Shown here: piece after piece, positions 1-20,200 of the stretch | Layout: every line of letters begins with the position of its first letter | Position numbering within the stretch: the first letter of the stretch is position 1 | From: Caldithrix abyssi DSM 13497 | GTDB taxonomy: Bacteria > Calditrichota > Calditrichia > Calditrichales > Calditrichaceae | Direction: 5' to 3' | Assembly (NCBI RefSeq): GCF_001886815.1 | Contig: NZ_CP018099.1 | Location: 1,672,501 to 1,736,500, forward strand | DNA length: 64,000 nucleotides | Position numbers and translations under genes: made by a program | The notes under the pieces: generated by a model | What the model saw: the letters and a program-made list of their open reading frames with translations, nothing else | Databases searched by the model: none | Told to the model about the DNA's origin: nothing

Positions 1-3000
1 TTTTGCGATACAGGTAAAATTTGTAATCGCCCACCATTTGCCTATTTTTTTGCATGCCGCTGGTCATTTTATCGCCGTGATAGGGTTCTAACATCTCCGG
101 CTCAAAAGGCAGCTTTAAAAACTGGCACAATTGGCGAATTTCTCTTTCCGGATTTTGGAGCAGATCTTCATATTTTAGTACATATTTTCGCTGTTCCGGA
201 ATTTGACTTAAAAAGTTTATGATATTCAGATGGCTAACTAACCAGATGAGTTCGGCCAGCTGTCGTCGGGTAAAAGGATGTTCGAATTTAAAAAAGTTCT
301 GATCCAGCCTGGCCTCCAGAAAGGAGTAAATTGTGGCGTACGGATGGCGCTGAAGATGAATGTACAGCGTGTTTTCAAATTCTTCTTCCGCACGGTTTAA
401 AATGTTTAGATCGATGGCATAAGCGGGCGTTTTATCCACAAATAGCTGTGGATTGATCTTCATTTGCAGGCGCCTGTAAAATTCATGGGTGGAGATGTTC
501 TGCCGGAGATAGGCGTCGTAAATTTCCTGCGCTTCCGTTTCATCGCAGTGAAAGACTTCCATTAACGTTCTGGGGATGGCTTCATTCCAGAGGAGCAGCC
601 CGCTTTTTTCAAAAAACTCGTGTCGTTCTTTTAAAAAGTTAAAGGAGAGAAGATCCATTTCCGGCGGGGCAAAGAGCCGGGAGTGGCCTTGCAAAATGAC
701 GCGCAGCAAGGTTGAGCCCGAGCGCGGCGGAGAGAAGATAAAAATGGCCTGCTTGTTTTTTTGTGGGGCGGTAGAAGAATCAACACGTAAGGGCACAATA
801 ATTTTTTTAAACCGCTCCAGCGCCTCTTCCGTAAGTACAGGTTCGTTTGCAATGGCCCGCCATCTTTCTTCGGCGCAATCCTGTGGTAAAGGCGGTACCT
901 TGCCGAATTTTTTTTCAACGAAATCGGAGAAATATTCCTGCATGAACAGGGCAAATTGTTCGACCGTGGGCGCGTAAAGCAAAACGCCGGGCGGCGGCAG
1001 GTGATGAAAGTCATCGATCAGTTGTTGAATAAAGCGCTGCGCTTTTTGATCGTCTCCGCCCCGGGCAAAAAAGTTGTCGGTAACAGAAAGTTCATCCACC
1101 TGCAGAACCTGCTTCCACAATTCTAAAATGTATTTTTCCACTTCATTTCTAGGCGGTATGATGGATGGATTGGCTTCAGGCTGCGTCATGGAAGCAGACT
1201 CGTCGTTTTCGCCTTCTTCTAACAGTTTGCTTACTTCTTCGTCGCTTAAATCTTCCAGTTCGGCCAGTAAGGATTCCAATTCTTCCGGGCTTTCCTGTTC
1301 CAGTTGCGCTTCGGCGATCTGGTTGGCAATGCCGTCAATGGTGGGATACTCGAAAAAAGTTCTGAGGGGCAGATTAACGCCAAACTCTTCCTGAATTTTT
1401 GAAACCACCTGCGTGGCCATCATGGAGTGGCCGCCCAGTTCAAAAAAGTTATCGAACACGCCAACCTGTTCAATGTTTAAAATTTCGCGCACGATTCTCG
1501 CCAACTTTTCTTCCGATTCGGTGCGCGGCGCAACAAACGGCGCGGAAGAACGAATCCTGGAAAAATCAGGTCTGGGCAGGGCATGGCGGTTGATTTTACC
1601 GGCCGGAGTGAGGGGGATTTTTTCCAGCCGGATAAAAAGAGCGGGAATCATGTACTCAGGTAAAAATTGACGTAATTTTTCTCTCAATAATTCCTGCTTT
1701 AGTTCCTGGCCGTCTTCGGCTTCGTAATAGGCCACCAGAGTTTTGTCGCGTCGCTCCACATCAAAGGCCTGCACCACGGCCTGTTTGATGCCCGGCAGTT
1801 CGTTGAGAATGGATTCGATTTCACCCAATTCAATACGAAAACCGCGGATTTTTAACTGATGGTCCACCCGTCCTAAAAATTCAATGTTGCCGTCCGCCAG
1901 AAAACGCACGCGATCGCCGGTTTTGTAAACGCGCCCTCGTTCCGGTTTTAAGGGATTGAGGACAAAACGTTCTTTTGTTAAATCGTCGCGTTTTAAATAG
2001 CCTTTGGCCAGATTGCCGCCGCCAATGAGCAGCTCGCCCGGAATGCCGATGGGCGCCGGATGGCCGTAAGGATCGATGACGTAAAATTCGCGATTGGCGC
2101 GCGGTCGTCCGATGGGCACGGATCGGCCCTCAAACTGCGCAGGCACCGCAAAAGTAGAAGCGGTGATGACCGTTTCGGTGGGCCCGTAGGCGTTGAGCAG
2201 TCGGGCGCCTTTTAGATTGATTTTTTGCCAGGCCTGCAGTGTGTCCAGGCGGAACACATCGCCGCCCACAATGATCAGCCGAATGCGGTTTTCGGGCAGC
2301 AGTTCCGGTTGTTTGGCCAGTTCCTGCACAAATTGATTCCAGTAGGCGGTGGGCGGATTGATGACGGTTAAATCGTACTCTTTGATTTTTTGCGCGAACT
2401 GGGCTGCGCTCCAGATTTCGTTGTCGCGCATGCACACCGTGGCGCCGCTGATTAAAGGCGGCAAAATCTGTTCGATGGAAGCGTCGAAATTTAATGCCGC
2501 AAACTGTAACACGTTGTCGTCTTCTGTGAGCTGGTAGTAGTCTTTCATGTCCTGGCAGTGGTTGGCCAGCGGGCCGTGCTGAACCTCCACGCCTTTAGGC
2601 TGGCCAGTGGAACCGGAAGTGTAGATGACGTAGGCCACATCCTGCGCCTCTAAGTTAACGTTCAAATTCTCCGGCGATTCGTTTAAAATGGCCGGCCACT
2701 CTTCATCTAAAAATATTTTTTCGCCCAGGGCTTGCGGCTGGTTTTTAAAATAGCCTTTGGTTACCAGCAGGCCGGCGCCAGAATCCTGGAGCATGTACTC
2801 CAGCCGATCTAAAGGATAATCCGGATCGAGCGGCAGGTACACGCCGCCGGCCTTCAAAACGCCTAACATGGCCACAATCATCTCTGGCGAGCGGTCGGCG
2901 TTTACGCCCATGATCTGCCCTTTAGTAAGTCCTTTTTTCAACAGGTAGCGGGCAAACTGGTTGGCCTGCGCGTTTAACTGAGCATAGGTCAACGCTTCGC

Positions 3001-4594
3001 TTTTGACGCGCAGGGCGATGGAATCCGCCGTTTTAGCAGCCTGTTCTTCAAAAAGGCCGACGATTGATTTCTGCTCGTCGTACCAGGCTTCCGGCTGGCT
3101 CCAGTCTTCCACCAGCAATTTGTATTCTTCCGGAGTTAAAAGATTGATCTGGCCGACGCGGATCTGCGGGTCGGCGACGATTTCTTCTAATATTTTCAGG
3201 TAATGCGCAATCAGACGATCCATGGTCTGATCGTTAAAAAGATCGGTGTTGTATTCCAGTTTACACTTAAGCGGCAAATCGCCGTCGGTAACATTCAGAA
3301 TGAGATCGAATTTGGTGGTCTTGTTTTCCAGTTCGATTAATTCGATTTCCAGGCCGGGCAGCTGCAATTTTTCAACCGGCGCGTTGTTCATGACGAACAT
3401 GGCCTGAAAGAGCGGCGAATGGCTCATGTCCCGTTCGGGCTGCAGCTCTTCCACCAGCATCTCAAAGGGCAAATCCTGATTAGCGTAAGCGCCCAGGGTG
3501 GTTTCTTTGATCTGTTTTAAAAATTCGGTGAATTTGGGGTTGTCTTCGATGGTGGCGCGTAGCACCAGGGTGTTGACGAAAAAGCCGATTAAATTTTCCG
3601 TCTCTTTGCGGTTGCGGTTGGCGATGGGCGAGCCCACGCAGATGTCGTTTTGACTGCTGTAGCGGTGCAACAGCACAAAAAAGGCGGCCAGCAGGGTCAT
3701 AAACAGGGTGACATCCTGCCGGCGGCTTAAATCGCGTAATTTTTCTGCAAGGTCGGGCGCAATTTCAAACAGCTTAAAATTGCCGTTGTAGGTCTGGTAG
3801 GCCGGCCGCGGACGGTCAAGGGGCAGTTCCAGCAAGGGCGGAATGCCGGCTAATTTTTGGCGCCAATAGTCCAGTTGCTGTTGCAGGGTTTTACCTTTTA
3901 GCCATTTGCGCTGCCATACGGCAAAATCGGCGTACTGGATGGCCAGGGGCTCGAGATTGGCCGGTTTGCCCTGCACGCTGGCGGTGTACAGACGCATGAT
4001 CTCGTGCACAAACAGGCCGGTGGACCAGTTGTCGCTCACGATATGGTGCATGACCAGAAGCAGACCAAAATGTTGCTCACCAAATTTTAACAGGGTAATG
4101 CGCAGGAGCGGTCCGCTGGTCAGATCAAAAGGTTTAAGCGCTTCTTCCATGGCCATCCGATGAAATTCGTGCTCCTGCTGGTCGGCAGGCAGGGCCGAAA
4201 GGTCGATCTGTTCGATGGGAATGTAAAGTTCCGGCGCAATCACCTGCAGAGGATGCCCGTTTTCTTCGGCAAAAGTGGTGCGCAACACCTCATGCCGTTT
4301 GATCACCTCGTTCAGGCTTTTTTCCAGGGCCTTGATATTTAAATCGCCTTTAATTCTCAGGATTGAAGGAATGTTGTACAACGGGCTGCCGGGTTCCAGT
4401 CGATCCAGAAACCACAGCCGCTGCTGGGAGAAAGAAAGCGGAAAACGATTGGTGTTGCGCGGCTGCGGTAAAATTACCAGATCGTTTAATTCAATACCCT
4501 GTTCGCGCAGCAAAATTTCAAAGAGTTCGCGTTTTTCGTACGGTAAGCTCAGAACCTGTTTGATGATTTCTTCTGTTGAAAATCCTTTGTTCAT
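1..4594 (-). CDS. NRPS (C-A-PCP, degenerate carrier, sulfotransferase), 3' end cut by window
   Basis: Partial final megasynthase of the cluster; 1531 residues are visible and the frame stays open to the window edge. Domains: condensation (about 1-440, MHHIVSDNWS at 182-191 with the HHxxxD core intact), adenylation (about 480-990, with YTSGSTGQPKG and NAYGPTE), peptidyl carrier (about 1025-1095, GGHSMM with Ser1057), a second carrier-like domain (about 1140-1215) reading GGDDQKA, where Asp1182 replaces the phosphopantetheine Ser, and a sulfotransferase from about 1280 with the PAPS-binding motif SPPRSGSTLLR (1288-1298), then FAPPE, DKTPAY and a QRHPYATIYSF segment. That motif set resembles the ST domains of CurM and cyanobacterial olefin synthases, which sulfonate a beta-hydroxyl before thioesterase-driven decarboxylation. 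A thioesterase may lie just outside the window. The ATG overlaps the stop of the PKS gene (ATGA), so the two are translationally coupled. By-eye adenylation code begins D-A-E; the substrate is not predictable. Confidence 0.93.
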   Translation of the reverse strand, partial: MNKGFSTEEIIKQVLSLPYEKRELFEILLREQGIELNDLVILPQPRNTNRFPLSFSQQRLWFLDRLEPGSPLYNIPSILRIKGDLNIKALEKSLNEVIKRHEVLRTTFAEENGHPLQVIAPELYIPIEQIDLSALPADQQEHEFHRMAMEEALKPFDLTSGPLLRITLLKFGEQHFGLLLVMHHIVSDNWSTGLFVHEIMRLYTASVQGKPANLEPLAIQYADFAVWQRKWLKGKTLQQQLDYWRQKLAGIPPLLELPLDRPRPAYQTYNGNFKLFEIAPDLAEKLRDLSRRQDVTLFMTLLAAFFVLLHRYSSQNDICVGSPIANRNRKETENLIGFFVNTLVLRATIEDNPKFTEFLKQIKETTLGAYANQDLPFEMLVEELQPERDMSHSPLFQAMFVMNNAPVEKLQLPGLEIELIELENKTTKFDLILNVTDGDLPLKCKLEYNTDLFNDQTMDRLIAHYLKILEEIVADPQIRVGQINLLTPEEYKLLVEDWSQPEAWYDEQKSIVGLFEEQAAKTADSIALRVKSEALTYAQLNAQANQFARYLLKKGLTKGQIMGVNADRSPEMIVAMLGVLKAGGVYLPLDPDYPLDRLEYMLQDSGAGLLVTKGYFKNQPQALGEKIFLDEEWPAILNESPENLNVNLEAQDVAYVIYTSGSTGQPKGVEVQHGPLANHCQDMKDYYQLTEDDNVLQFAALNFDASIEQILPPLISGATVCMRDNEIWSAAQFAQKIKEYDLTVINPPTAYWNQFVQELAKQPELLPENRIRLIIVGGDVFRLDTLQAWQKINLKGARLLNAYGPTETVITASTFAVPAQFEGRSVPIGRPRANREFYVIDPYGHPAPIGIPGELLIGGGNLAKGYLKRDDLTKERFVLNPLKPERGRVYKTGDRVRFLADGNIEFLGRVDHQLKIRGFRIELGEIESILNELPGIKQAVVQAFDVERRDKTLVAYYEAEDGQELKQELLREKLRQFLPEYMIPALFIRLEKIPLTPAGKINRHALPRPDFSRIRSSAPFVAPRTESEEKLARIVREILNIEQVGVFDNFFELGGHSMMATQVVSKIQEEFGVNLPLRTFFEYPTIDGIANQIAEAQLEQESPEELESLLAELEDLSDEEVSKLLEEGENDESASMTQPEANPSIIPPRNEVEKYILELWKQVLQVDELSVTDNFFARGGDDQKAQRFIQQLIDDFHHLPPPGVLLYAPTVEQFALFMQEYFSDFVEKKFGKVPPLPQDCAEERWRAIANEPVLTEEALERFKKIIVPLRVDSSTAPQKNKQAIFIFSPPRSGSTLLRVILQGHSRLFAPPEMDLLSFNFLKERHEFFEKSGLLLWNEAIPRTLMEVFHCDETEAQEIYDAYLRQNISTHEFYRRLQMKINPQLFVDKTPAYAIDLNILNRAEEEFENTLYIHLQRHPYATIYSFLEARLDQNFFKFEHPFTRRQLAELIWLVSHLNIINFLSQIPEQRKYVLKYEDLLQNPEREIRQLCQFLKLPFEPEMLEPYHGDKMTSGMQKNRQMVGDYKFYLYRK

Positions 4595-7500
4595 TCCTGG
4601 TCATCCTTGTTTTTCTTTTGCCGCAGCAATTCGGCCGCCTGTTCGTCGGACATGGATTTAAGCTGTTCTAACAGGTTTTCCACCTGGTCGATGGGCGCGC
4701 TTTCTTTTTGGGCGGTTTCCTGTTCAATAATTTTGGCCACGCCGGAAATAGTGGCGTCTTCGAACAGGGCGCGCAGGGGCAGCTCAACCTGAAATTTAGC
4801 GCGCAGTTCGGAAATGAGCTGTGTGCCCATCAGTGAGTTGCCGCCCAGATCGAAAAAGTTATCGTTAATGCCAATGTTTTGAATGCCCAGCAGTTTACGC
4901 CACACCACGGCGATCTCTTCCTGTAGCTCGTTTTGCGGAGCGACAAATTCGTAAGGCAGCTCCGGGCGGTCGTGCATGGCTTTTTCTTTGTCGTCGTCGG
5001 TTTCTTCTTTTTGAACGCCTTTAACCCAGCGCGCAATCCGTTGGTGTAAATCGCCGGTAGAAACGATCAATTGACCAAACCCCGGATTGGCGAAAATGCG
5101 TTCAAAGGCGGCCAGGCCTTCTTCCGGGGTTAAAGCCAGACGCGCCACTTCCATTTGCGCCTGGTTTGCGGAGGGCATGGTTTCGTCAAAATTCCAGCCG
5201 TCCCAGTTAACGCTCAGCCAGTTGCTGTTGCTGTCCTGATTTTGCAGGTACACCAGCGCGTCCAGGCCGGCATTAGCCGCGGCGTACGCGCCAAAGCCGT
5301 AGCCGCCCAGGATGGCGGAAACGGACGATTGCAGCAACACAAAATCGAGCGTCTTTTGGTGCAGGGCGCGGCGCAAATTCAGCGCGCCCACCAGTTTGGG
5401 GCCAAGCTGCGCTTCCAGGTCTTCGCGCGTTAATTCCGGAATGGGTTTAAAGGCCTGTTCGCCGACCAACCCCGCCGCGTGGATTACGCCGTCCAGACCG
5501 CCAAAGCGCTCTTCTGCTCTGGAAACGGCCTGCTGAACGGAAGCAGCGTCGGTAATATCGGCTTTTAAGATCAAAATTTCAGAGCCATTCTCTTTGATGG
5601 TCTGTAATGTTTTTATTTTCTGGCTGACGGCGTCGTTTTCGTCATGTTCTGCCAGCCATTGCGCCCAGCTTGTTTCCTGAGGAAAATCGGCCACTTCCAG
5701 CAGGGCGAGCCTGGCTTTAACCTGCCGCGAAAGGTAGTGCGCCAGGCGCAGACCGATGCGTCCCAATCCGCCGGTTATCAGGTAGCGGCCTTCGTTTTTT
5801 AAATAACCATGCAGGGGATTGCTTTGCGGCAGTTCGATGCGCCGGAATTCCAGAGTCCAGCGATCGCGCGCACGGAAGGCCACAACCGGATCGTCGGTGT
5901 GCGCAAAGACTTCCTGAATCAGATTCTGAGACATGGGCTCCAGGCTGCCAAAGACGTCGTGCGGCAGTTTAAGATCAATAATCTTACAGGAGATATTCGG
6001 AAATTCCTGCGGAATGACTTTGCTTAACCCCAGAATGATGGCTTTAAGCGGCGCGTAGGCGTCGTAGCCGGTTACCTGAAACAGGTGGTTGGTGACAATG
6101 GTTAAGGTAAGCGGTTGAGTCATCCCGACTTTCTGCAGAGTTTGAACCAGGTACAGCAAACTCAGATAGCCGGAGATAAACGCTTCGTCAAGAATGTCGG
6201 ACGACTGGCTGCTGGCGTTGATGTTCCAGCAGTGGACGATATGCTGCGGAAGCCGATCGCTGGCTTTTAGTTGCTCAAAGAGCTTTTCAAAACTCTCTTT
6301 ATGGTCGATGGGCATGGCAAATTTATTTTCGCCCTGATCATGGAAAGCCGTGCCCGGCTCCACGGTGGTTAACTTCAGCGGCAGGGATTCTTTAAGGATA
6401 AAATCGACAAAGTTGCGCGCCAGCCCGGTGTCGTCTTTTAAGATCAGCCAGTTTTGTTCTTCTGGCAGTGCGGGCTTTTTGCGGGGCATGGCCTTTTGCT
6501 GCCAGGATGGAACGTAAAACCATTTTTCCATGGGCAGCTTCTGCAGCTCGTCTGTTTCCTGAGCAACGGCCATGCTGCCCAGGCCGCCTTTAATATCCAG
6601 CCAGTAGCGTTTGCGTTCAAACGGGTAGCGCGGCAGCGAAAGCTTCAACCGCCGTTCATCGCCGTAATAATTTTTCCAGTCAATGAATTTGCCGCTCAAC
6701 CACAGGCGCCCGACGGTGTTTAAGATAAAGGCCACATCCGATGTCTCCTCGCGCGGGTGACGCATGGAAGCTAAAATGGTGGTGTTGAGCTGTTTTTCGG
6801 GATGTCTGCGCGCCAGCGTGCTAAGAGCGGTTCCAGGGCCGACTTCCAGTAATACCGGATTTAATTCCCGAATGAGGGCGCTTAAATTATCCATGAAGCG
6901 CACGCCGTTACGTAACTGCCGGGCGTAGTAGTCGGGATCGGTAGCTTCTTCCACCGAAATCCATCCGCCGCTGACATTAGAAACGTAAGGCAGTTGCGGC
7001 GCGTTGAGCGTAATGCTGCTTACGATTTTGCGGAACTCGTCCAGAATGGGTTCCATCATTGCAGAGTGGAAGGCGTGGGAGGTGTGCAGGCGTCGAAAGG
7101 CCACGCTCTTTTCTTTGAGTTGTTTTTCGATCTTTTCGATAGCTTCAAAAGGGCCGGAAAGAACCGTTACGCCGGGCGCATTGAGGGCGGCCAGTGAAAC
7201 CTGTTCATCCAGGAAGGGCTGAACATCGCTTTCGTTCAACTGCACGCTGATCATGGCGCCTGGCTTTACGCTTTGCATCAGGCGACCGCGGTGGGCCACC
7301 ACAAACAACGCGTCTTTTAAGCTGAACACGCCGGCCAGATGGGCCGCCACATATTCGCCAATGCTGTGCCCGACCATGGCGGCCGGCTCCACGCCCCAGT
7401 GCATCCATAATCTGGCCAGGGCGTATTCCACAACAAACAACGCCGGCTGCGTAAATTGTGTTTGATTGATCTGTTCCTGCGCCCATGCGAACTTTTCGGG

Positions 7501-9255
7501 GGAGGGGTAGAGAATCTCTCTTAAATCCAGCCCGATGATCGGCTGCAAAATATCGGCGCAGGCGTCCACGGCCTGTTTAAAGACCGTTTCGTGCTCGTAC
7601 AGTTCGCGCCCCATGTTTACGTACTGCGAGCCCTGACCGCTGAACATGAAGACTACGGGCGGCTCTTCCGGCTGTTTTTCGTGGCCCAGGGTCATAAGCC
7701 GTTTGGCGTCTTTGGTTTCCAGAATTTCCAGCGCTTGCTGAACGGACTGGCAAACCAGAGCGCGGCGTTTTAATAGCGGCGTTCGTCCTGTTTGCAGGGT
7801 GTAAGCCACATCGGCCAGATTGACCTGCGGATTGTTTTTGAAAAATTCCACGTATTTTTGCGTCAGTCGATCGAGCGCCTCTTTACTTTTAGCGGAAAAA
7901 AGTAAAAGCTGGTAAGGCCGGGCCGGATCAGATGGCTGCATCTGCGGCGCTTCTTCCAGCACGGCGTGCACGTTGGTGCCGCCAATGCCAAAGGAGCTGA
8001 CTCCTGCGCGGCGCGGGGCGCCGTTTTCTGTTTGCCAGTCGCGTAATTTCGTGTTGACATAAAAAGGCGAATTTTCGAAATCGATTTGCGGATTGGGCTT
8101 TTCAAAATGAAGGCTCGGCGGAATTTGTTTGTGGTGCAGAGCCAGGGTTGCCTTGATTAATCCGGCCACACCGGCGGCGGCGTCCAGGTGTCCGATGTTG
8201 GTTTTAACCGAACCGATGGCGCAAAACTGCTTACGATCGGTTTGCTCGCGAAAAACCTGGGTGAGGGCTTTGATTTCGATGGGATCGCCCAGCGAGGTGC
8301 CCGTACCGTGCGTTTCGATGTAGGTGATGGTTTCGGGATTTACATTAGCAACGATCTGCGCGTTGGCGATAACCTGCGACTGACCGTCCACCGAAGGAGC
8401 GGTGTAGCCGATGCGATTGGCGCCGTCGTTGTTAAAGGCCGAACCTTTGATAATGGCGTAGATGTGGTCGCCGTCTTTCAGAGCGTCTTCTAACCGTTTA
8501 AGCACCACAATGCCGGCGCCGTTGCCGCTCACCGTGCCGCTGGCTTTGGCGTCAAATGCGCGGCAGTGGCCGTCTTTAGATAGGATCATGCCTTCCTGGT
8601 AAAGGTAGCCCTGTTTTTGCGGAACGGTAATGGAAACACCGCCTGCCAGCGCCATATCGCAGTTGTAATTTAACAGATTTAAACAGGCGATGTGCGTGGC
8701 AACCAGCGAGGTAGAACAGGCCGTTTGAACGTCCACGCTGGGGCCGGTTAAACCCAGTTTGTAGGAGACGCGCGTGGTTAAAAAATCTTTGTCGTTGCCG
8801 ATCGAAAGCTGGTAACCTTCGGCGCCGCTAATGTTGCCCTTGCGGTTCAGCAGATAGGAATAGATGTAGGTGTTCATGCTGACCCCGGCGAAGACACCGA
8901 TTAAACCTTCGAACGTTTCGGCGGTGTAGCCCGCGTCTTCCAGCGCATGCCAGGCGATTTCCAGAAACAGGCGGTGCTGGGGATCCATCACTTCAGCTTC
9001 GCGCGGAAAGAAGTCAAAAAAACTGGCGTCGAATTTATCTTCATCTTTAATAATGCCGCGCGCCGGCACATAATTAGGATCTTTGATTAATTGCGCATCC
9101 ACACCGGCTTCCTGCAATTCTTCTTCCGTAAAAAAGCGGATGGCTTCCTTACCTTCTTTCAATAATTGCCAGAATTCTTCAATGGTTTCGGCGCCCGGGA
9201 ATTTCCCGGCCATACCCACGATTGCAATTTCAAGGCCTGTAAATTCTTCGCTCAT
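4591..9255 (-). CDS. Type I polyketide synthase module KS-AT-KR-ACP
   Basis: A 1554-residue one-module PKS that should add one C2 unit and reduce it to a beta-hydroxyl. KS about 10-435 has Cys180 in VQTACSTS, His316 in THGTGT and His356 in NIGHLD. AT about 535-850 has Ser631 in GHSIGE and HAFHS at 727-731, the usual malonyl-CoA signature. KR about 1155-1360 is intact: GGLGRIG at 1162-1168, SS at 1310-1311 and Tyr1324 in YAAAN. ACP about 1440-1510 carries Ser1474 in GGNSLMG. There is no DH or ER. The KS active-site block VQTACSTSLVA resembles hybrid KSs that take an aminoacyl chain from an NRPS, which fits the PCP ending the upstream megasynthase. A charged C-terminal tail (about 1520-1554) is probably a docking segment to the NRPS that follows. 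Its stop overlaps that gene's start. Confidence 0.96.
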   Translation of the reverse strand: MSEEFTGLEIAIVGMAGKFPGAETIEEFWQLLKEGKEAIRFFTEEELQEAGVDAQLIKDPNYVPARGIIKDEDKFDASFFDFFPREAEVMDPQHRLFLEIAWHALEDAGYTAETFEGLIGVFAGVSMNTYIYSYLLNRKGNISGAEGYQLSIGNDKDFLTTRVSYKLGLTGPSVDVQTACSTSLVATHIACLNLLNYNCDMALAGGVSITVPQKQGYLYQEGMILSKDGHCRAFDAKASGTVSGNGAGIVVLKRLEDALKDGDHIYAIIKGSAFNNDGANRIGYTAPSVDGQSQVIANAQIVANVNPETITYIETHGTGTSLGDPIEIKALTQVFREQTDRKQFCAIGSVKTNIGHLDAAAGVAGLIKATLALHHKQIPPSLHFEKPNPQIDFENSPFYVNTKLRDWQTENGAPRRAGVSSFGIGGTNVHAVLEEAPQMQPSDPARPYQLLLFSAKSKEALDRLTQKYVEFFKNNPQVNLADVAYTLQTGRTPLLKRRALVCQSVQQALEILETKDAKRLMTLGHEKQPEEPPVVFMFSGQGSQYVNMGRELYEHETVFKQAVDACADILQPIIGLDLREILYPSPEKFAWAQEQINQTQFTQPALFVVEYALARLWMHWGVEPAAMVGHSIGEYVAAHLAGVFSLKDALFVVAHRGRLMQSVKPGAMISVQLNESDVQPFLDEQVSLAALNAPGVTVLSGPFEAIEKIEKQLKEKSVAFRRLHTSHAFHSAMMEPILDEFRKIVSSITLNAPQLPYVSNVSGGWISVEEATDPDYYARQLRNGVRFMDNLSALIRELNPVLLEVGPGTALSTLARRHPEKQLNTTILASMRHPREETSDVAFILNTVGRLWLSGKFIDWKNYYGDERRLKLSLPRYPFERKRYWLDIKGGLGSMAVAQETDELQKLPMEKWFYVPSWQQKAMPRKKPALPEEQNWLILKDDTGLARNFVDFILKESLPLKLTTVEPGTAFHDQGENKFAMPIDHKESFEKLFEQLKASDRLPQHIVHCWNINASSQSSDILDEAFISGYLSLLYLVQTLQKVGMTQPLTLTIVTNHLFQVTGYDAYAPLKAIILGLSKVIPQEFPNISCKIIDLKLPHDVFGSLEPMSQNLIQEVFAHTDDPVVAFRARDRWTLEFRRIELPQSNPLHGYLKNEGRYLITGGLGRIGLRLAHYLSRQVKARLALLEVADFPQETSWAQWLAEHDENDAVSQKIKTLQTIKENGSEILILKADITDAASVQQAVSRAEERFGGLDGVIHAAGLVGEQAFKPIPELTREDLEAQLGPKLVGALNLRRALHQKTLDFVLLQSSVSAILGGYGFGAYAAANAGLDALVYLQNQDSNSNWLSVNWDGWNFDETMPSANQAQMEVARLALTPEEGLAAFERIFANPGFGQLIVSTGDLHQRIARWVKGVQKEETDDDKEKAMHDRPELPYEFVAPQNELQEEIAVVWRKLLGIQNIGINDNFFDLGGNSLMGTQLISELRAKFQVELPLRALFEDATISGVAKIIEQETAQKESAPIDQVENLLEQLKSMSDEQAAELLRQKKNKDDQE

Positions 9256-9380: not shown

Positions 9381-11192
9381 TTAACTTGAAACACCTGACT
9401 TAAAAACGGCAGATTTTTCCAGAATTTGTTTTACAATGGTCAGATTATTTTCCAGAGCTTTTGTCAATTCTTCATTGGAATACTTTAAGGTAACGCCCGG
9501 CATATAGGTAAGAACGATTTTGTCATCCCAGATTTGATAGTGCAGACCAAAGTAGCGGGCGTAGGGCAGTCGGATGCCCGGACGTCCCACCACCGGAATC
9601 TCTTCGAAAATGTCCGGATGCGAAACGGGAATATCCATAGATTGCGGTTGGTATTTGCCCGCAATCTTTAAGATCAGTACGCTAACGCCCAGCAGAAGAT
9701 TGACCCACAATCTGGCGAATCCTTTGCGCGTATTTACAAACAGGGAAATAATTTTAGATGGAGGAAAATACTTGCGCGCAGCCCGGTAAGCGGTTCGTTG
9801 CGAGTCGATGGCTTTTTTGAACAACTCAAGCGCCTGTTGGGGATTGAAGCCTTCGTTTTGCACGTAATCTACAAATTGCTTTACCTCTTCCGTCGTGGCG
9901 TTGGCGTTGGTCAAATTCATGCAACGATATCTGGACATGGAAAGGTATTGAATAATATTCAGATGTTTTCCGAATAGTTGTTTGGCGGCCATGGCCAGAA
10001 CGACCATAAAGGCCGGGACGGGCAGCATGTTGAACTGGTTGAAGAAATTTTTTCCCGTACCGTTTATCTCAAATGTAGCCTGCTGGTGGTCGATCACGCG
10101 CTCGGCGATTTTTTCGGCTTTTTTTAACGGTCCTGGCGGAATTTGCCAGTTTAGCTTGTTAAAGGTTAACAGTACGGCCGGCTGGGTCTGGTTTTCTGGC
10201 AGGGAAACGGCGGCGGCGCGCTTTTGAATTTCTGCGCTGCCGCGCATCATCGGATTGCCATCTAAATAAGCGTTGAAACTGCAAAAGGTGGTCGCCCGGG
10301 CGTTGCCAAAAACCACGATTTGCAAACTGGAATGGTACCAGCGGTTAAAGTGATTCCGGCTTTGCGTCAGGCGCGCAGCCTCGGCGTAAGTTTGCGGATG
10401 GTCGTCCAGATCGAGACAGATTGTGAAAAAGCTGTGCCGAATTTTTTCGAAGGCCAGCCGATTTTGCGGGATATGCAGAAGATTGGAAAAGATTTTGATT
10501 TGCGCCGGATGCGCAATGCCGGTTAACAAACCGGGCGAGGCAGCATTGGGCGCATCGCCGTTCTGGTTTACCTGATTTACAATTTTGGTTAAAGTTTCTA
10601 ACAGCTCGGCAAAGGAGGTGGACTGACCGGGATGCCCCACGTTGATAAGAAAATAATGCCCACGGTAAATAACGGTAATCTGATCGGTTTTACTGCTTTT
10701 AAAAAGACGCGCCCGCCCGTTTTCGATGATCAGGCTGGTGCCAAAAAAGTTGGGATACTGGCCCATTTCCAGAACATGATCTTTATGTCGATCCGGCGCC
10801 AGCTTTCCGCTCATTAAATCGTCGTAAAAACCGTAAACGGCCATAATTAAAGTGGCGGCGCGTTGAAGAGCAGTCAGCTTTCTGGGATCGTCTTTTAAAG
10901 CCAGAGTGGCGGAATTAATTAAGGCAAAAAGTCCTGCGCCGCGCATGTTGGTCTTTCTTAAGTCATCTTCCAGACGGTCGGGCAGGCTTTTGTAAAAAGA
11001 TTTAAAGCCGGTTAAAGTCATAAGCGCTTTAACAATAGCCCTGGAAATAGCCGAATCCTTAATTCCCATTTCTTCCAGTGAAATCATTTCATCCCAGGCC
11101 GGCAGAGGAACTAAAGGCGGTTTGGGATAGGCGGCTAATTGCTCGTAAATATTCTTTGTCCGCTCTCCTTCGAGTAAGTTTGTGTACGCCAT
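9381..11192 (-). CDS. Carnitine/choline acyltransferase-family protein, catalytic His replaced
   Basis: A 603-residue protein between the two PKS-containing genes and in their direction. Several blocks match the carnitine acyltransferase family by eye: a substrate-site stretch around 147-187 (FFGTSLI, then ITVIYRGHYFLINV), NRWYHSSLQIVV at 283-294, FFNQFNMLP with a following helix near 390-420, and SMSRYRCMNLTNANATTEE, which aligns with the family's RxGRTE region. The family's catalytic block, EHxxxEGxP in carnitine acetyltransferase, reads FNAYLDGNP here, so the catalytic His is Asn307 and the Glu is Asp311. The STS motif near the C-terminus is also not recognisable. It may therefore bind an acyl chain or carrier without transfer, or use other chemistry. 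Carnitine-acyltransferase domains are known as chain-releasing domains of some fungal PKSs. It is separated by 125 bp from the PKS after it and 67 bp from the megasynthase before it, so it is most likely part of the biosynthetic operon. Confidence 0.78.
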   Translation of the reverse strand: MAYTNLLEGERTKNIYEQLAAYPKPPLVPLPAWDEMISLEEMGIKDSAISRAIVKALMTLTGFKSFYKSLPDRLEDDLRKTNMRGAGLFALINSATLALKDDPRKLTALQRAATLIMAVYGFYDDLMSGKLAPDRHKDHVLEMGQYPNFFGTSLIIENGRARLFKSSKTDQITVIYRGHYFLINVGHPGQSTSFAELLETLTKIVNQVNQNGDAPNAASPGLLTGIAHPAQIKIFSNLLHIPQNRLAFEKIRHSFFTICLDLDDHPQTYAEAARLTQSRNHFNRWYHSSLQIVVFGNARATTFCSFNAYLDGNPMMRGSAEIQKRAAAVSLPENQTQPAVLLTFNKLNWQIPPGPLKKAEKIAERVIDHQQATFEINGTGKNFFNQFNMLPVPAFMVVLAMAAKQLFGKHLNIIQYLSMSRYRCMNLTNANATTEEVKQFVDYVQNEGFNPQQALELFKKAIDSQRTAYRAARKYFPPSKIISLFVNTRKGFARLWVNLLLGVSVLILKIAGKYQPQSMDIPVSHPDIFEEIPVVGRPGIRLPYARYFGLHYQIWDDKIVLTYMPGVTLKYSNEELTKALENNLTIVKQILEKSAVFKSGVSS

Positions 11193-11259: not shown

Positions 11260-14200
11260 TTATCGTTTACCACCGCGTTTTTGTTGCATCATTCTCAATT
11301 GTTGCATGCGGCTGGTGGCTTCTCGTTGTTTAGAAGCGCGGGCCATCGATTTGGTCAGCTCCTGGTTCTGGGCGTCTTTATTTTCCAGATACTGCGCAAG
11401 ACTGTGGATGGTGGGATATTTAAAGATATCCACCACGTCCAGTTCCATATCCAGTTCTTCTCTTACTTTTCCCTGAATTTGAATGACGCCTAACGAATGG
11501 CCGCCAAGATCAAAGAACGAGTCGTAAATACTGATCTCTTCGACCTGCAGCACTTCTTTCCAGATGTTTGCCAGCTGGCGTTCGAGATTGGTACCGGGCT
11601 TAATGATCTGTCGTTTTTCGGTGAGGGCTTCCGGTTCCGGCAGGGCGCGCTTATCTACCTTGCCGTTGGCCGTCAGCGGGAATTTATCCAGAACTACAAA
11701 GTGCGTGGGAATCATGAAATCCGGAATTTGTTTTTGCAAATAGGCGCGCAAATCCGCTTCGTTAAAATCGTCTTCCGGGATGAGGTAGGCCACAATTCGA
11801 ATGTCTGCGCCTACTTTTTTAGCGACGACCACGGCGTCTTTAACCAGCGGGCTGCTTTCGATGACATTTTCGATTTCGCCTAACTCTACTCTAAAACCGC
11901 GTATCTTGATCTGTTCGTCAACGCGATCGATGAATTCCAGATTTCCGTCCTTAAGCAGGCGCACCAGATCGCCCGTGCGGTACATGCGTTCTCCCTTTTG
12001 ATCGACAAAGGGGTCCGGTAAAAAGCGCTCGGCGGTTAAGTCGGGCCGGTTCAGGTAACCGCGCGCCAGCCCAACGCCGGCGATGTACAACTCGCCTGGC
12101 ACGCCCTGCGGAACAGGATTAAGATAGGGATCGAGCACGTAGGCGCGCATGTTGGGTATCGGCCGGCCGATCGGAACGGAAAAGGCGTTAAAGTCGTCGG
12201 GAATCTCATAGGTGGTAGTACAGATGGTCGCTTCCGTCGGCCCGTACCCGTTTATAAAATGGTCCACGGCTTTTTTCCATTTACGGGCGATTTCCGGCGT
12301 GCATTTTTCGCCTGCGGAAACCACCACTTTTAAAGTCGGAAATTGATCCGGCGATAGGATGGACAGCACCGATGGCGGCAGGGTAAGATGGGTAATCTTT
12401 TGACGATTAATAACGCCGGTTAAAGCAGGTAGCGACAACAGGTCTTCCGATTTTAACAGCGCAATGGCTCCGCCTAAAATCAAAGGTCGGAAAATTTCTT
12501 CGATGGAAGCGTCAAAACTGAACGAAGCAAAATGGAGCTGGCGCGTGTTTTCGTCGCTTGAGTAGCGTTCGATGGTGGCCATCAATGTGTTGACCAGCCC
12601 GTCGTGATGCAGCAAGGTGCCTTTCGGTTTGCCCGTTGAGCCGGATGTGTAAATAATGTAAGCCAGGTTTTGCGGTGAAAGCGAAAGACGCGGATTTTCA
12701 ACCGGATATTCCTGCAGTTCGGAGAGTTCATCCATCAGGATCAGGTTGGCGCCTGAGTTCAGTTTGCTGGCAAACGATTTTTTTGTGATAACGCATTTTA
12801 AACGGGCGTCTTCCAGCATGTAGTGCATGCGATCGGCCGGATAGTCCGGGTCAATCGGCACGTAAGCGGCGCCTGCTTTTAAAACGGCGAACATGGAAAC
12901 GATCATCTCAAACGAGCGATCCAGGCAAATGCCGATGCGGTCTTCCGTTTTTACGTTTTGTTTTATCAGAAAATGGGCCAGACGATTGGCTTCTTCGTTA
13001 AGCGTCTGGTAGGTCATGGATTGATCTTCGAAAGTAAGCGCTTCTTTTTGCGGCACTCTTTGCGCCTGGCGCTCAAATAGATCAATCACCGTAAGGGAAT
13101 AATCCAGGGCTTTTACGGGCCCGCTCAGCCTGGCCTGCAGTTCTCTGGTTTCTTGTTGGTTGAGCAAGGTCAGGTCTGCAATTTTTTGTTCGGGGTGGTC
13201 GACCATCTGTTCGACGAGGTGCAGATAATGATCGAGCATTTCGCGGATGGTGCTGTTTTCAAACAGATCGACATTGTAGCCCAATGAAATGGCCAGTCCC
13301 TGGCCTGATTCCACGGCCATCATGGTAAGATCGAACGGCGCCACGCCCTGTTCCAGAGCCATGGACTCAATGGTCAGGCTTCCTAATTTTAATTGGGCGC
13401 CTTCGCGGCTAAGGGCAAATTGCGAAAGCCCCTGATCGTGCATCAAATGCGCTCGTTCCAGCACGAACATGGTCTGGAAAAGCGGCGTACGACTGGGATC
13501 GCGTTTTGGCTGAAGCTTTTCCACCAGTAAGGTGAGGGGGTAATCCATGTGTTCAAAAACTTCCAGCGCCGTTTGTTTTACCGTTTCTAAAAAGCGAGAG
13601 ATGTTCTGCTGCGGGTCGATTTGCACGCGCACGGGCAGTGGATTGACAAAGTAACCTATGGTGCGGTTAAATTCGCTGAGGCTGCGACCTGCCGTTGGCG
13701 AGCCCACGATGAGATCGTCCTGCCCGGAGTAGCGGTGCAGCAACAGGTAGTAAGCCGAAAGTAAAAAGGCAAAGGGCGTTAAGCCGTTGTTTTCGCAAAA
13801 GGTGTGCACCCTGTTCGACAAAGAGCCTTCCAGCCATCTGGTTTCAGTGCTTCCTTTAAAGGTTTGAACCGGAGGACGCGGGCGATCTGTCGGCAAATTG
13901 AGAACGGGCAGATCGCCCTGCAATTTATTGGCCCAATAAGCAAACAATTTATTGCCCTCTTCTGAGGCCAGTAGCGCATCCTGCCATTCGATGAAGTCTG
14001 TGTAGTCGGCGCTTAACGGTTCTAAAACGGAATCGTCGCCCTGATTTTCGAAAATCTGGCTCAACTCATCTAACAGCACGGCCTGCGACCAGATATCCGT
14101 TACGATGTGGTGCATGACAAACAGCAGGATGTAATCGTCTTCGCTGCGTTTAAACAGATAGATGCGCATGAGCGGCCCGTTTTCCAGATCAAAATAACTT

Positions 14201-17200
14201 TCCACCTCTTCTTGCAAGCGGTGTTTAATCTGTTCTTCATTCAGGGCCTGCACATCTTCTTCCATGAAAAAGACGGGCATGGTTGGATGAATGCGTTGAA
14301 CGGGCTCGCCGTCTTTTAAATGGAAGGTGGTGCGCAGCGCAGGATGGCGGTCGATCAATTTTTGGAAGGCTTCCCGCATCAGATCGGTATCTACCTGCGA
14401 GCGAATGCGAACGGCGTAGGCCAGGTTAAAGACGCTTTGCGGATTCATGGTGTGCTGAAAGTACATGGCTCGCTGGCCGTGCGACAGTCTGAAGTCGAAC
14501 GGCTCACGGGCGGTCAGCGCCCGTCGGGCAAATTGGAACTTTTCAACTTCGTCTCTGGCGCTTTCGATCTGATCCAGGGTCAGGTTGGTTAAGTCGTTAA
14601 TGGACGGTCCTTTGAGTAAGGTGGCGATGGGCACGGAAATACCCAGTTGACTCTCCACCGTGTTTTTTAATTCAATGGCCATTAAAGAGTCGATGCCAAA
14701 CTGCGAAAGCGACAGTTCATGGTTAATTTGCGAGGCGGGAATTTTAATGACCCCGGCCAGCACGTAGGTCAGGTAATCGCGAATCACATCGAAGCGTTCT
14801 TCCGGATTGAGCGCCAGCACTTCTTTTTTGTCGATGTCTTTAGCGCCTTTTTCGGAACCGGCTTCTGGCTGTTCTTTGAATAAAATATCGCGCAGCAAAG
14901 GCGGTATTTGTTCGGCCGGTTTGCTGCCAAAGATATTGGCCCAGTTTGTTTCGGTAATGATCAGATGACCTTTTTCGACGGGAATGAGTTCATTTAAGAT
15001 GCTCCATCTACCAAGCGCAATGGACATTTCGTCCGGAACGGCGCCGCCGAGTTGCACATGCAGCGAGGGCAGTCCGGCAAGCAAACGTTTTTTGTGCAGC
15101 GCCAGCAGATAGTTGTTAAGGCCGAATTCATTGGCGCCCGCCTTTTTTTCATCTGGCAGCGAAAAGCGGCTGACAGAGATGAAGAAATCGAGCGCAAGGC
15201 CGTGCGTTTTTATGAACGTGGCTTCAATAGCCGCTAAATTTTCCAGAAGATGTTGCGGGGAGAGTTGATCCAGATTTAGCAGGACGCCCTGAATGCCATC
15301 GGCGGAAAAGGAATCCAGCGTCAAATAGTCAATAAAACGCACTGTATTCGGAAATTCCACTTCATTATGGCTTTGCAAGGGTACAAAGTCGATTTGATGA
15401 ACGCCCTGATTCATTAAATAACGAACCAACGCCAGGCTGTTTACGTTTTTCGAGCCGACAACCAGGTATCGGGCTTCGGGCATGAACAGGGTGGAAGCCG
15501 ATTTCACGCTCTGTTCTTTTTGCTCCAGGTTTAAAACAAATTTTTCGATAGAGGTCGATTTTTGCAGTTTGTGAATGGCCAGGCCCACCTGGTTAAAGAG
15601 AAAACTCTTGAGCGGCAGAGGTTGGTAAGTCTGGCTTTCGAATTTCTTTTGCACTTCTGAACTGATGCGTCGGATAAGGCGCGGTTGTTGCGAGGACAGG
15701 TTTTCCAGATCCACGGCAAAAAAGGCGATGTTGTAACGTAGATTATGGTAAACAATGGATTGGCCAAAGGTGTCTCTGGGATTCAATTCGATGAAACGCC
15801 CGAAATCTTTAAGCAGGGCAAAGCTGTTCGCCACTTTCTCGTTGGAGTAGGTATTTACAATGACATCCACGCCTTCATCGTCGGTAATTTTAAGAATATC
15901 GTCGATGAAGTTGAGCGTATTGTTTTTGAAGATGTAGTCCACATGCAAAGATTCCAGAAGCTGTGAGTTGCGGGCGTCTTTTATCGTGGCAAAGATAATT
16001 GCGTTTTGATCTTGCGCCACCTGGATCAAAGCCAGGCCGATGGAGCTGTCGGCGTCGTGGATGAGCACTTTTTCGCCCGGTTGAATGTGGGCCAGGTAGT
16101 TAAGCGCGTAGTGCGCGGTAAAATAGTTAAAAGGCAGGGCGGCGGCCTGTTCAAAGGTCAGCTCTTTTGGCATGGGTAAAATAAAGTCTGCTCTGGTCAG
16201 CCCGTATTTTTTGAAGCCGTTGTCGATCAATCCCATCACGCGCTGTCCAGTCTTAAAGGCTCCGGCTTTATTCCCCACGCGTGTAATGATTCCCGCAAAT
16301 TCAATACCTATTTTGTTCCATGCGCCGGTCTGATTTTCGCTGGCCAGAATAACGTCGCGATTGTTCAGTCCCAGCGCTTTGATTTCCACTTCAACTTCGT
16401 CTTCTCCCGGTTCATAGCGCACGGTTTTCAGGCTCATTTCAGAGGCGACCGGAGCGCTGATTTTAACCGGCGTTTGATGGCTTAAACGTTCAACGTAAAA
16501 TTGCCTGGAGCGAATACTCAGGCGTTGCTCGTAGTCGGGCAGTAAAAGGGCTTTAAACAACGTTCGGGGATCGGGCGTATCCACGTCAATCTGGCTGATC
16601 AGGCGAGAATTGCTGGCAAAGTTAAAAAGCAGATCGCCCAGCAGGGCCTGCTCCGGATCGCATTCCGCTGACTGGCCGTTAACTAAAAAGGCGTTTTGCG
16701 TAACCAGCCAGAATCGTTTTAGCTTGGGGGAGAGCGCATTGCTTAAGGCATAGAGAATTTTTTCGTTGGGGATCTCCGGATTGAGAGACCACAAATACAG
16801 AATTTCGGTATTGTCGGAGATGAGCGGGTCGATTATCTTTTGCGCTTCTTCAAACTTTGTCGGGTTTAAAATCAAAGTCAGGTCATCGTGAAACTCATTC
16901 TCTTCGCCGGGAATAACGGTAAAGCACTCAAAGCCCTTGTCGTTGAGCATTTGGATGAATTGTTCGCTGCGGCTTGTACCATCGCTGAACACCAGCCAGC
17001 GATTGCCCGGGGCGCGCTGGGCTTTTTGTGTTTTGCCCGTATCCAGCGCTTTCCAGGTAATGGTGTAGCTGATGTTGGCCAGCGCTTCGTGCAGAGGAAT
17101 GGTTTTAAACTGCAGGTCATTAATCTGCATGACGATATTTTCTTCGGCGTCCAGGATGATGAATTCCACCGATATTTCGCCTTCGGATAAGGAGTTTTTA

Positions 17201-20200
17201 AGGAAGACCCAGAACTCTTTTTCCAGCGGTTTGACCAGTTTTAGCGACTTAATGGCTTTAAGGGTAAAGGGCGGCAAAAAGCGATTTTTACCAGAAAGAT
17301 TGAGAGCCATTAATTGAAAACAGACGTTGATGATGAACGGATCGATGAGGTACTCCCCGCCGATCGAATGTTGAATTTGCGAAAGATTGACTTTAGCCAG
17401 CAGCTGGTTTTCTTTTTGCCACATGGCTTCTACCGATTGCAGCACGTTCCGGAAGCGGGCCGGAAAATCTGTGAAAACTTGCGGATCAATCGGGTCGAAT
17501 TTTTGCATGACTTCGGTAATGGAAACAGGAGAGACGGCGGGCAGTTCCAGTTTTCTGTTAATGGCGCCCAGACTGTGCAGTTTCCATTCGTTGGTAGAAC
17601 CGTTTCGAATGCGGCTGTAAGCCTGAAAATACGCTTTTTTGGGTGAAACGGGGATCAAACTGAACTGCAGTTCGCGATCCTGGTTTTCCGAGAGTGTGAA
17701 CAGGTTTTTAAATACCAGATTTTCGAGAGACACCTGTATCTGGCCGAAAATCTGTCGGGAAGCGGCGGCGGCCATTTCCAGATAGGCTGTTTCCGGCAAA
17801 AAGGAGCTGCCGAGTTGCGGATCGGTGATAAACGATTGCAAATAGCGGCTGTCCAGCTTAATGCTCCAGTTGGTGCGCGCCGGGAAAAACGGCGAAGACG
17901 TTTGCCGGCCGAGCAGGGGATGGAGCTGTTCCTCTTTTTGCGGACCGCCTTCGATGAGGGCTGTCTCAGCCAGTTCGTCCGTAATCCAGTAACGCTGACG
18001 TTGAAACGGATAAAACGGCAGGTCCACTAATTGTCCGTCTTTGTTGTACATGCGCGCCCAGTTAACCGGATAGCCCAGGGTGTAAAGCGTGGCCAGCGTG
18101 TTCAGCATGCGCCGACGTTCGGCTTCTTTGCGCCGTAAGGAGGGCAGAATGAACGCTTCTTTGGAATGGGCGTTTAAGTTTTGTTTAATGTAGTTCTTTA
18201 AAACCGGATGGGGGCCGATTTCAATAAAAATATTAAAGTCTTTTTCAATCAGGCGATCGATGGCCTGCGAAAAATGGACAAATTGCCGGACGTTTTTGCT
18301 CCAGTAGCGGGCGCCATAATCATGGTCTTTTGCAAAATCGCCGGTTACGGTTGAAACGATGGGGATTTGCATCTGGCGCGTCTGAATGCCTTCCAGCGAA
18401 TCTTCCAACTCCGCCAGGTAGCCGTCCATAATCGGGCTGTGGAAGGCGTAGTTTACCGGCAATTTTTTGAAAAACACATCTTTGCCTTCCAGTTCGGCCA
18501 GCACCTCGTCGATGGCCTGCTCATCACCGGAAATTACCGTGGAGCTTACGCTGTTGTGCGCGCCGATGGAGAGTCGATCGGCGTAGGGAGCAATGAGCTT
18601 TTGCACCTCTTCGAGGGGCAGGTCAATGGCTGCCATTTTTCCCTTACCGGTTGCCTGTTGCATTAAGCGGCTGCGGTGGTAAATTACTTTGACGGCCGTG
18701 TCCAGGCTTAAAATACCCGAAACATGAGCGGCCGCTACCTCGCCCACACTATGGCCAACCACGGCATCCGGTAAAATGCCCCACGAACGCCATAGGGCCA
18801 CCAGGGCCACCTGAATGGCAAATAAAGCCGGTTGGGCAATTTCCGTTTCGCTTAATCTGGAATTTTGTTCGTCGGCTAACAGCTCATCGGTTAAGTTCCA
18901 GTCGGCGTATTCGCTCAGCAGCAAAGAAATGCGCTCGATGGTTGCCTTAAAGACCGGCTCTTTGTTGTAAAGTTCGCGACCCATGGCCCACCACTGTGGT
19001 CCCTGGCCGGAAAAGACGTAAGCGATTTTGAAATGGAGGTTGGGATTAATGACGCCGTAAACTAACGATGGATTTTCTTTGCCTTCGGTGAAGTCTTGCA
19101 GGTTTTTCCTTAATTCTTCTCTGCTTTCGGCGATGACGGCCAGCCTTTGATCCAGATGCGTGCGTTTGAGGGCTAAGGTGTACAACAGGTCGTACATATT
19201 GTTTGCGGAGTCGTCCAGGCGTGTCTGGACGAATTTAGAAACCGAACGGGCAAAATCTTTTAATGCCGTTTCGTTTTTTGCTGAAATTGGTAAGATAAAA
19301 GGTTTTTCTGCGATGTTTTGACCGCGATCGGGATCGGGCGCTTTTACCTCCGGCGCTTCTTCTAATATGACATGGGCGTTGGTGCCGCCAAAGCCAAAAG
19401 CGCTAATCCCGGCCAGGCGTTTTTTATCGCCCTTTTTCCAGGGAATGTTTTGCGTGGGAATTTGAATGGGAGCGCCGTTTAACTTAATGTGCGGATTCAA
19501 TTGTTTAAAATTTAGATGCGCGGGAATCTCTTCATGGTGCAACGCCAGCACGGTTTTAATCAAACCGGCAATGCCTGCTGCGGATTCCAGGTGCCCGATA
19601 TTGGTTTTGACCGAGCCGATAAACAGCGGATTTTCTTTTGAGCGTTCCTGCAACATGACGCGTTTGAGCGATTCGATTTCGATGGGATCGCCTAAAGGCG
19701 TGCCTGTGCCGTGCGTTTCGATGTATTGAATCTGGTCGGGTTCCACCTCGGCGTTGATCAGGGCGTCCTGAATGACTTTTTGTTGAGCGACGCCGTTGGG
19801 CGCGGTAATGCCATTGCTTTTACCGTCCTGATTTACGGCGCTTCCGCGAATGACGGCCAGGATGCGATCGCCATCGTTCAGGGCGTCGCTTAAGCGTTTT
19901 AAGATCACTACGCCGGCGCCTTCGCCGCGGCCGTAGCCATCGGCGCTGGCGTCAAACGTTTTACATTTGCCGTCGGGCGAGAGCATGTGAGCCTGCGAAA
20001 AGGTGATGGAAAGTTCGGGCGATAAGATCAGGTTAACGCCGCCGGCAATGGCCATGTCGCAATCGCCGTTCAGTAAGCTTTGCGCCGCTTCGTGTACGGC
20101 TACCAGCGAAGACGAACAGGCCGTGTCAATAGCCATGCTCGGGCCCTGTAAATCGAACAGGTAAGAGATGCGATTAGCGGCGATGCTAAAGGCGTTGCCC

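Follow-up and report, generated by a model that had tools for sequence, protein, structure and literature searches.

What does a protein of the carnitine/choline acyltransferase (cAT) fold do in a putative bacterial lipopeptide assembly line when the histidine on which the chemistry of this fold depends is missing? The question is raised by a gene of Caldithrix abyssi DSM 13497 that lies in a stretch of 64,000 nucleotides analysed here as a whole (the window; contig NZ_CP018099.1, positions 1,672,501 to 1,736,500) and that is embedded in a large cluster of polyketide synthase (PKS) and nonribosomal peptide synthetase (NRPS) genes. The Caldithrix abyssi genome paper makes no mention of carnitine, polyketide or nonribosomal. 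Here, we combined profile searches, structure prediction, family alignments and comparison of related clusters to determine what kind of protein this is, what has replaced the canonical active site and whether the assembly line depends on the gene.

Results

The protein is a full-length member of the cAT superfamily

The first-pass annotation of this DNA had called the protein carnitine-acyltransferase-like, and this identity is borne out by profile as well as fold. In a Pfam profile search, PF00755 was the sole match of the 603-residue protein, with a score of 158.7 bits (E=2.7e-46) against a cut-off of 22.3 bits. An AlphaFold2 model, for which a 20-row family alignment served as input, has a mean pLDDT of 90.6 and a pTM of 0.91, and its 28 best fold matches in the PDB are CPT2, CrAT, ChAT or CrOT without exception (TM 0.71-0.79). 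The match to CPT2, CrAT and ChAT is full-length and covers both domains (TM about 0.75-0.78), and condensation-type and BAHD acyltransferases are the distant next matches (E about 1e-6, TM 0.3-0.5). Because the model is of high confidence and its top 28 matches all belong to these four enzymes, the claim of a cAT fold is sound, and the protein is a member of the PF00755 superfamily. The profile score, the fold and an orthologue of 72-73% identity in an independent genome rule out chance or a gene-prediction artefact.

The gene was also correctly described as lying between the megasynthase genes and in their direction, with 67 nt separating it from the gene for the 3868-residue protein and 125 nt from that for the 1554-residue protein (Table 1). 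In addition to the canonical elements, the model contains a hydrophobic helix through which the protein may contact the membrane. The hydrophobicity of this helix is kept in most family members, and not in L042.

Table 1. Position of genes, domains and motifs discussed in the text, in window coordinates.
Feature	Position	Strand	Basis or remark
NRPS module P0003: C-A-PCP-PCP and C-terminal sulfotransferase domain	2..4594	-	Domain scan; runs beyond the window
Downstream PKS module, 1554 aa: KS-AT-KR-ACP	4591..9255	-	Domain scan
His-less cAT-fold protein P0001, 603 aa	9381..11192	-	PF00755, AF2 model, PDB fold matches
Family-specific GRPGI motif, residues 536-540, Arg537 invariant	9573..9587	-	Family alignment
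Invariant Ser524-His525-Pro526	9615..9623	-	Secondary structure and spacing put it near the canonical STS place; ambiguous in sequence alignments
Hydrophobic helix, residues 491-510, preceded by basic residues	9663..9722	-	Helix in model (DSSP), hydrophobicity; candidate membrane contact
Former active-site motif FNAYLDGNPM, residues 306-315	10248..10277	-	Phe306 in profile register of catalytic His
Upstream megasynthase P0004, 3868 aa: FAAL-ACP-KS-AT-DH-ER(weak)-ACP-C-A-PCP, no KR match	11260..22866	-	Domain scan
AraC-type probable cluster regulator (HTH_18, below Pfam cut-off)	22964..23680	-	Pfam scan

The gene lies within a predicted lipopeptide cluster

The genome has 16 condensation domains, all of them between positions 1,627,085 and 1,686,987. 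This stretch of about 60 kb, 1.2% of the single 4.98-Mb contig, also contains the cAT-like gene. The cluster starts with the AraC-type regulator and continues with the FAAL megasynthase, the cAT-like gene, the KS-AT-KR-ACP gene, the C-A-PCP-PCP-sulfotransferase gene and further NRPS genes. It ends with an NRPS with a thioesterase-like end (recognised by eye), a sulfotransferase, an MFS exporter, a type II thioesterase and a PPTase, of which the last two were assigned in this genome by likeness to scanned homologues. In L061, L062 and L053, a gene similar in size to the AraC-type gene is likewise found ahead of the cluster. As judged from its domain content, the cluster is a FAAL-initiated lipopeptide assembly line with 16 condensation domains.

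Several further features of the cluster deserve mention. The first PKS module, at about residues 2100-2690 of P0004, looks partly dead, with a weak ER and no KR detected; among the relatives, clear KR domains are present in L029, L061 and L062, and there is no KR in L027 or in the second PKS gene of G009 (L054). The domain fused at the C terminus of P0003 is of the Sulfotransfer_3 type, a sulfotransferase-like stretch is also present inside the next NRPS protein (L047, 7392-16370), and free sulfotransferase genes are found at the cluster end (L049, L059). From these domains, the lipopeptide may be sulfated. Finally, between the NRPS genes lies a gene for a 648-residue protein that combines Ig/cadherin-like domains of bacterial type with a Por secretion tail (L048, 5740-7686, minus strand; genome position about 1,645,740-1,647,686).

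The catalytic histidine is absent from the whole family

Canonical carnitine/choline acyltransferases have the motif E-H-x-x-x-(D/E)-G. Residues 305-312 of the cAT-like protein read S-F-N-A-Y-L-D-G, without a histidine in either of two possible alignment registers. The first-pass annotation had put Asn307 in the place of the histidine, as is obtained by single-sequence alignment and by counting back from Asp311. By contrast, a HMMER profile search, three MAFFT modes and HHalign all put Phe306 opposite the catalytic histidine, with a one-residue insertion before Asp311, and the model, in which a strand ends at residue 305 and a helix begins at residue 312, is compatible with this register. Thus, residue 307 is Asn as stated and the histidine is indeed missing, but in the profile alignments its counterpart is Phe306. 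The same annotation had singled out Asp311 as a change from Glu. This residue is ordinary for the superfamily, because ChAT likewise has Asp at this position (EHSPFDG), and we therefore discarded it as an anomaly.

Nor does the gene stand alone. A second His-less copy is encoded in the same genome, and the catalytic histidine is absent in 20/20 family domains from Calditrichota, Chloroflexota and Acidobacteriota. Phe306 is invariant in all 20; at position 307, Asn, Ser, Thr and Gly occur, and at position 309 there is Tyr in 19 domains and Phe in the remaining one. Residue 311 is Asp in 18, in keeping with the requirement of the superfamily for Asp/Glu. The loss in every domain, together with the purifying selection described below, rules out a sequencing error or a single decayed gene.

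For comparison of the substrate contacts, we used a CrAT reference sequence that had been checked against PDB chains. We take Tyr452, Thr465 and Arg518 of CrAT to be carnitine contacts and residues 552-554 to be the STS motif of active enzymes. In the family, the position of Tyr452 is occupied by the invariant Gln415, and the positions of Thr465 and Arg518 vary, the comparison at Arg518 being made in a gapped alignment. The STS motif is absent from the family domains in the family alignments, in which the nearest invariant motif is SHP, in uncertain register. Lys419 and Lys423 of CrAT bind the 3'-phosphate of CoA (PMC11852590); the former position is mostly Lys/Arg in the family, yet Gln, Thr, Gly or Ser in several domains, and the latter is variable. 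By the features tested, the protein appears to lack the hallmarks of an active carnitine/choline acyltransferase. It is homologous to PF00755, and we regard the family as a new variant of the cAT fold in which the histidine is lost.

Other residues are invariant in the remodelled active-site region

The invariant set of the family comprises Phe306, Gly312, Asn313, Met315, Gln415, Ser524-His525-Pro526, Arg537 and His551, with His525 and His551 conserved in 19/19 domains that reach them. The invariance of residues in the old active-site loop argues for a pocket that is in use rather than decaying. For the pair L029 and L030, dN/dS (omega) is 0.15, a sign of purifying selection; between the window gene and its orthologue of 72% identity, dS has reached saturation. 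Thus, the replacement pattern of invariant residues is one of constraint and not of decay.

The placement of the SHP motif depends on how it is judged. In the model, a strand at residues 521-524 is followed by SHP and then by strands at 548-554 and 558-566. Judged from these secondary-structure elements and from the distance to the GLHYQ/GICYN strand, the motif occupies approximately the place of STS in CrAT. By MAFFT and realigned HHalign modes, SHP is opposite SMP, about 20 residues before STS. Because SHP lies approximately at the STS place by the first criterion, His525 and His551 are candidates for a moved catalytic centre. Accordingly, the main alternative is that the protein is still an enzyme, in which the base would have moved to His525 and/or His551 and Asp311, Tyr309 and Arg537 would contribute to the new active site, and which might O- or N-acylate the lipopeptide or hydrolyse misprimed acyl-carrier thioesters. 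The invariance of both histidines, the position of SHP after a strand that would replace the STS strand and the presence or absence of the gene among cluster homologues (see below), as is typical of tailoring enzymes, are in line with this idea; the ambiguity of the C-terminal alignment and the poor conservation of the CoA and carnitine contacts argue against it, and we consider it rather unlikely, if worth keeping in sight. In the strictest form of this idea, the active site would have been re-invented within the cAT fold: the catalytic histidine would have left the HxxxD loop, where Phe replaced it, and His525 and/or His551 in the C-terminal lobe would serve in its stead, giving a carrier-protein- or lipopeptide-specific acyltransferase or hydrolase with an optional tailoring function. 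To this form we would give roughly one chance in four.

The gene is optional at one junction of a conserved cluster

Clusters homologous to that of the window occur widely in the class: condensation domains are present in 25/40 of its genomes, many of which have 12-21. We located the KS-AT-KR gene in 19 genomes and read the preceding gene where the contig allowed. The cAT-like gene is ahead of the KS-AT-KR gene in the window and in G002, G021, G023, L028 and L031. In 13 genomes (G003, G006, G007, G009, G011, G012, G015 to G020 and G037), the gene is missing and the end of the A-PCP gene directly abuts the KS-AT-KR gene. Among the latter, G003 is from the same genus as the organism of the window, and its KS-AT-KR protein is 73% identical. 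In the stretches read, gene order is otherwise largely the same whether or not a cluster has the cAT-like gene, and the cluster tails are similar, which fits an accessory role of the cAT-like protein. In other words, the assembly line appears to do without this protein because 13 genomes have the junction and lack the gene, and a strict need for it is ruled out. A family member is encoded elsewhere in the genome in G003 and G037; because most genomes with a gene-less junction have none, substitution in trans is not the general answer.

We also considered whether the presence of the gene depends on how many PKS modules a cluster has, and found no clean rule. Where FAAL-PKS is encoded by a separate gene of about 2930 aa, the cAT-like gene is absent (G003, G006, G009, G016); clusters with a single fused gene split both ways, with the cAT-like gene present in G000, G002, G021 and G023 and absent in G015, G017 and G020.

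These comparisons bear on an earlier suggestion that the protein is an ACP-binding scaffold for the neighbouring synthases. By analogy with the NRPS X-domain, a non-catalytic protein could dock on a carrier protein at the PKS junction and recruit a tailoring enzyme, e.g. a sulfotransferase. The fixed position between the same two synthase genes and the frequent sulfotransferase genes in these clusters would agree with such a function, as would the wider CAT-like superfamily fold shared with condensation-type domains and the precedent of the X-domain itself, which has HRxxxDE for HHxxxDG (PMC6565677). However, the 13 related genomes that carry the cluster without a gene between the synthases make a scaffold less likely, and sulfotransferases are kept in these genomes where the tails were read. 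Moreover, conservation is in part in the old active-site loop, while a scaffold would need surface conservation, and there are family members away from any NRPS. Overall, we regard a scaffold as improbable.

Family members elsewhere are linked to export and maturation genes

Two peptides conserved in the family, used as search patterns against about 85,000 species genomes, retrieved at least 16 loci, in Calditrichota, Chloroflexota, Acidobacteriota and unassigned or doubtfully named bins. No NCBIfam model matches the family proteins, and no plasmid carriage of the family was found. Two records labelled JAGHBR01 (L027, L036) have genes that are 72-84% identical to the cluster of the window. Outside the class, only one distant PF00755 protein was found in 385 genomes (L026, 1138-3246, minus strand); its EHSIVDG motif is intact and it may carry a signal peptide, which makes it a rare bacterial carnitine-acyltransferase homologue with the look of an exported protein.

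In a tree with CrAT and ChAT as outgroup, the cAT-like family is one group (100/100), in which the six Calditrichota in-cluster proteins form one branch (100/97); cluster-linked members as a whole are not a single clade. The genome of the window holds both an in-cluster copy and the His-less copy outside the cluster. In three genomes (L046, 9439-11208, which equals L012; L036; L038), a non-cluster His-less gene forms a conserved pair with a sodium:neurotransmitter symporter gene, which it directly follows, and the symporter-adjacent copy belongs to a branch other than that of the in-cluster Calditrichota proteins. NRPS/PKS genes are near about half of the family members and absent near the other half, and therefore the ancestral role need not be natural-product synthesis. 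The protein might also handle lipids or amino-acyl groups in the cell without a direct role for the lipopeptide and be kept in the cluster by history or co-regulation, as could be read from the symporter-adjacent paralogue clade and from other members that adjoin peptidases or unrelated genes. This possibility seems to us a poor one, because members from Calditrichota, Chloroflexota and Acidobacteriota alike are found in such clusters, one member is fused to an MFS protein and the gene of the window lies in the 1.2% of the genome that has all condensation domains.

The recurrent neighbours outside Calditrichota are those of an export and maturation cassette. In L034 (Anaerolineae), the order is NRPS-TE, MFS, cAT-like gene, type II thioesterase and PPTase. 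In L039 (Acidobacteriota), an MFS/type II thioesterase/PPTase cassette adjoins the cAT-like gene, on the opposite strand. L040 encodes a fusion of 1182 aa in which the cAT-like domain follows an MFS protein (the MFS half was recognised by sequence likeness), beside a sulfotransferase and an NRPS. L032 encodes a tandem fusion of two His-less cAT-like domains (106-3693; 1196 aa), and downstream of it are type II thioesterase-like and PPTase-like genes, again by sequence likeness. The cluster of the window ends in the same kind of MFS/type II thioesterase/PPTase cassette.

Discussion

Because the catalytic histidine is lost across the subfamily and the gene is located in the cluster, the cAT-like protein probably binds or handles the lipid product outside the usual acyl-transfer chemistry. 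We suggest that it is a non-canonical accessory protein at the membrane, with acyl, acyl-pantetheine or lipopeptide chains as its ligands, a reading to which we assign a probability of about 0.4. In this model, canonical His-based acyl transfer between CoA and carnitine would have been lost, and the active-site region would have been rebuilt with other invariant residues. The hydrophobic helix would place the protein at the membrane, and the remodelled tunnel may bind one of the hydrophobic chains of the pathway, whether acyl, acyl-pantetheine or lipopeptide. The bound chain could then be held or passed on towards export, without the usual acyl-transfer mechanism. Acyl sequestration or shuttling, as the first-pass annotation had proposed, is possible under this model. 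A lipopeptide-handling role near the membrane is favored mainly because of the recurrent tie to the export and maturation cassette. Several findings weigh against the model. About half of the family is encoded away from NRPS/PKS genes, and the cluster-linked members are not a single clade; the evidence for a link to export comes from members in Chloroflexota and Acidobacteriota, while the exporter in the genome of the window is about 60 kb from the cAT-like gene, and the two invariant histidines could form a new catalytic centre.

The fold is known for one His-based reaction. That an entire subfamily under constraint, spread over three bacterial phyla, has lost the histidine clearly points to a pseudoenzyme or, alternatively, to an active site that has moved. 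The gene comes and goes at a fixed junction, even among members of one genus, of which a cultured representative probably exists. Because it is optional at one junction of an otherwise conserved cluster, its role can be approached by comparing products.

In the open-access literature searched, we found no accessory protein of a bacterial assembly line that is free-standing and of the cAT fold, and no precedent for a bacterial cAT pseudoenzyme. The X-domain of glycopeptide-antibiotic NRPSs is non-catalytic, has a changed HHxxxDG motif and recruits P450 enzymes (PMC6565677). It shares with the cAT-like protein the wider CAT-like superfamily and the assembly-line setting; however, it is a condensation-type domain inside an NRPS, while the cAT-like protein is a stand-alone PF00755 protein encoded by an optional gene. 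In fungal highly reducing PKSs (Tv6-931, LtbA, MaPKS17a), cAT release domains offload chains onto polyols and keep the catalytic His and Ser (PMC10901484). The association of a cAT fold with polyketide assembly is common to both. Unlike these domains, which are part of the PKS, the family protein is bacterial and free-standing, and these domains, which had been put forward as the known precedent, are a weak one because the His and Ser that they keep are both missing in the family alignment.

The closest relatives in structure are CrAT, ChAT, CPT2 and CrOT, with which the family shares the full-length two-domain fold, the NRW and xxxDG surroundings and clear profile homology. By contrast to these enzymes, the family is without the catalytic His, the STS motif and conserved carnitine contacts, conserves the CoA contacts only in part, and has instead a one-residue loop insertion, the hydrophobic helix and the C-terminal SHP and GRPG motifs.
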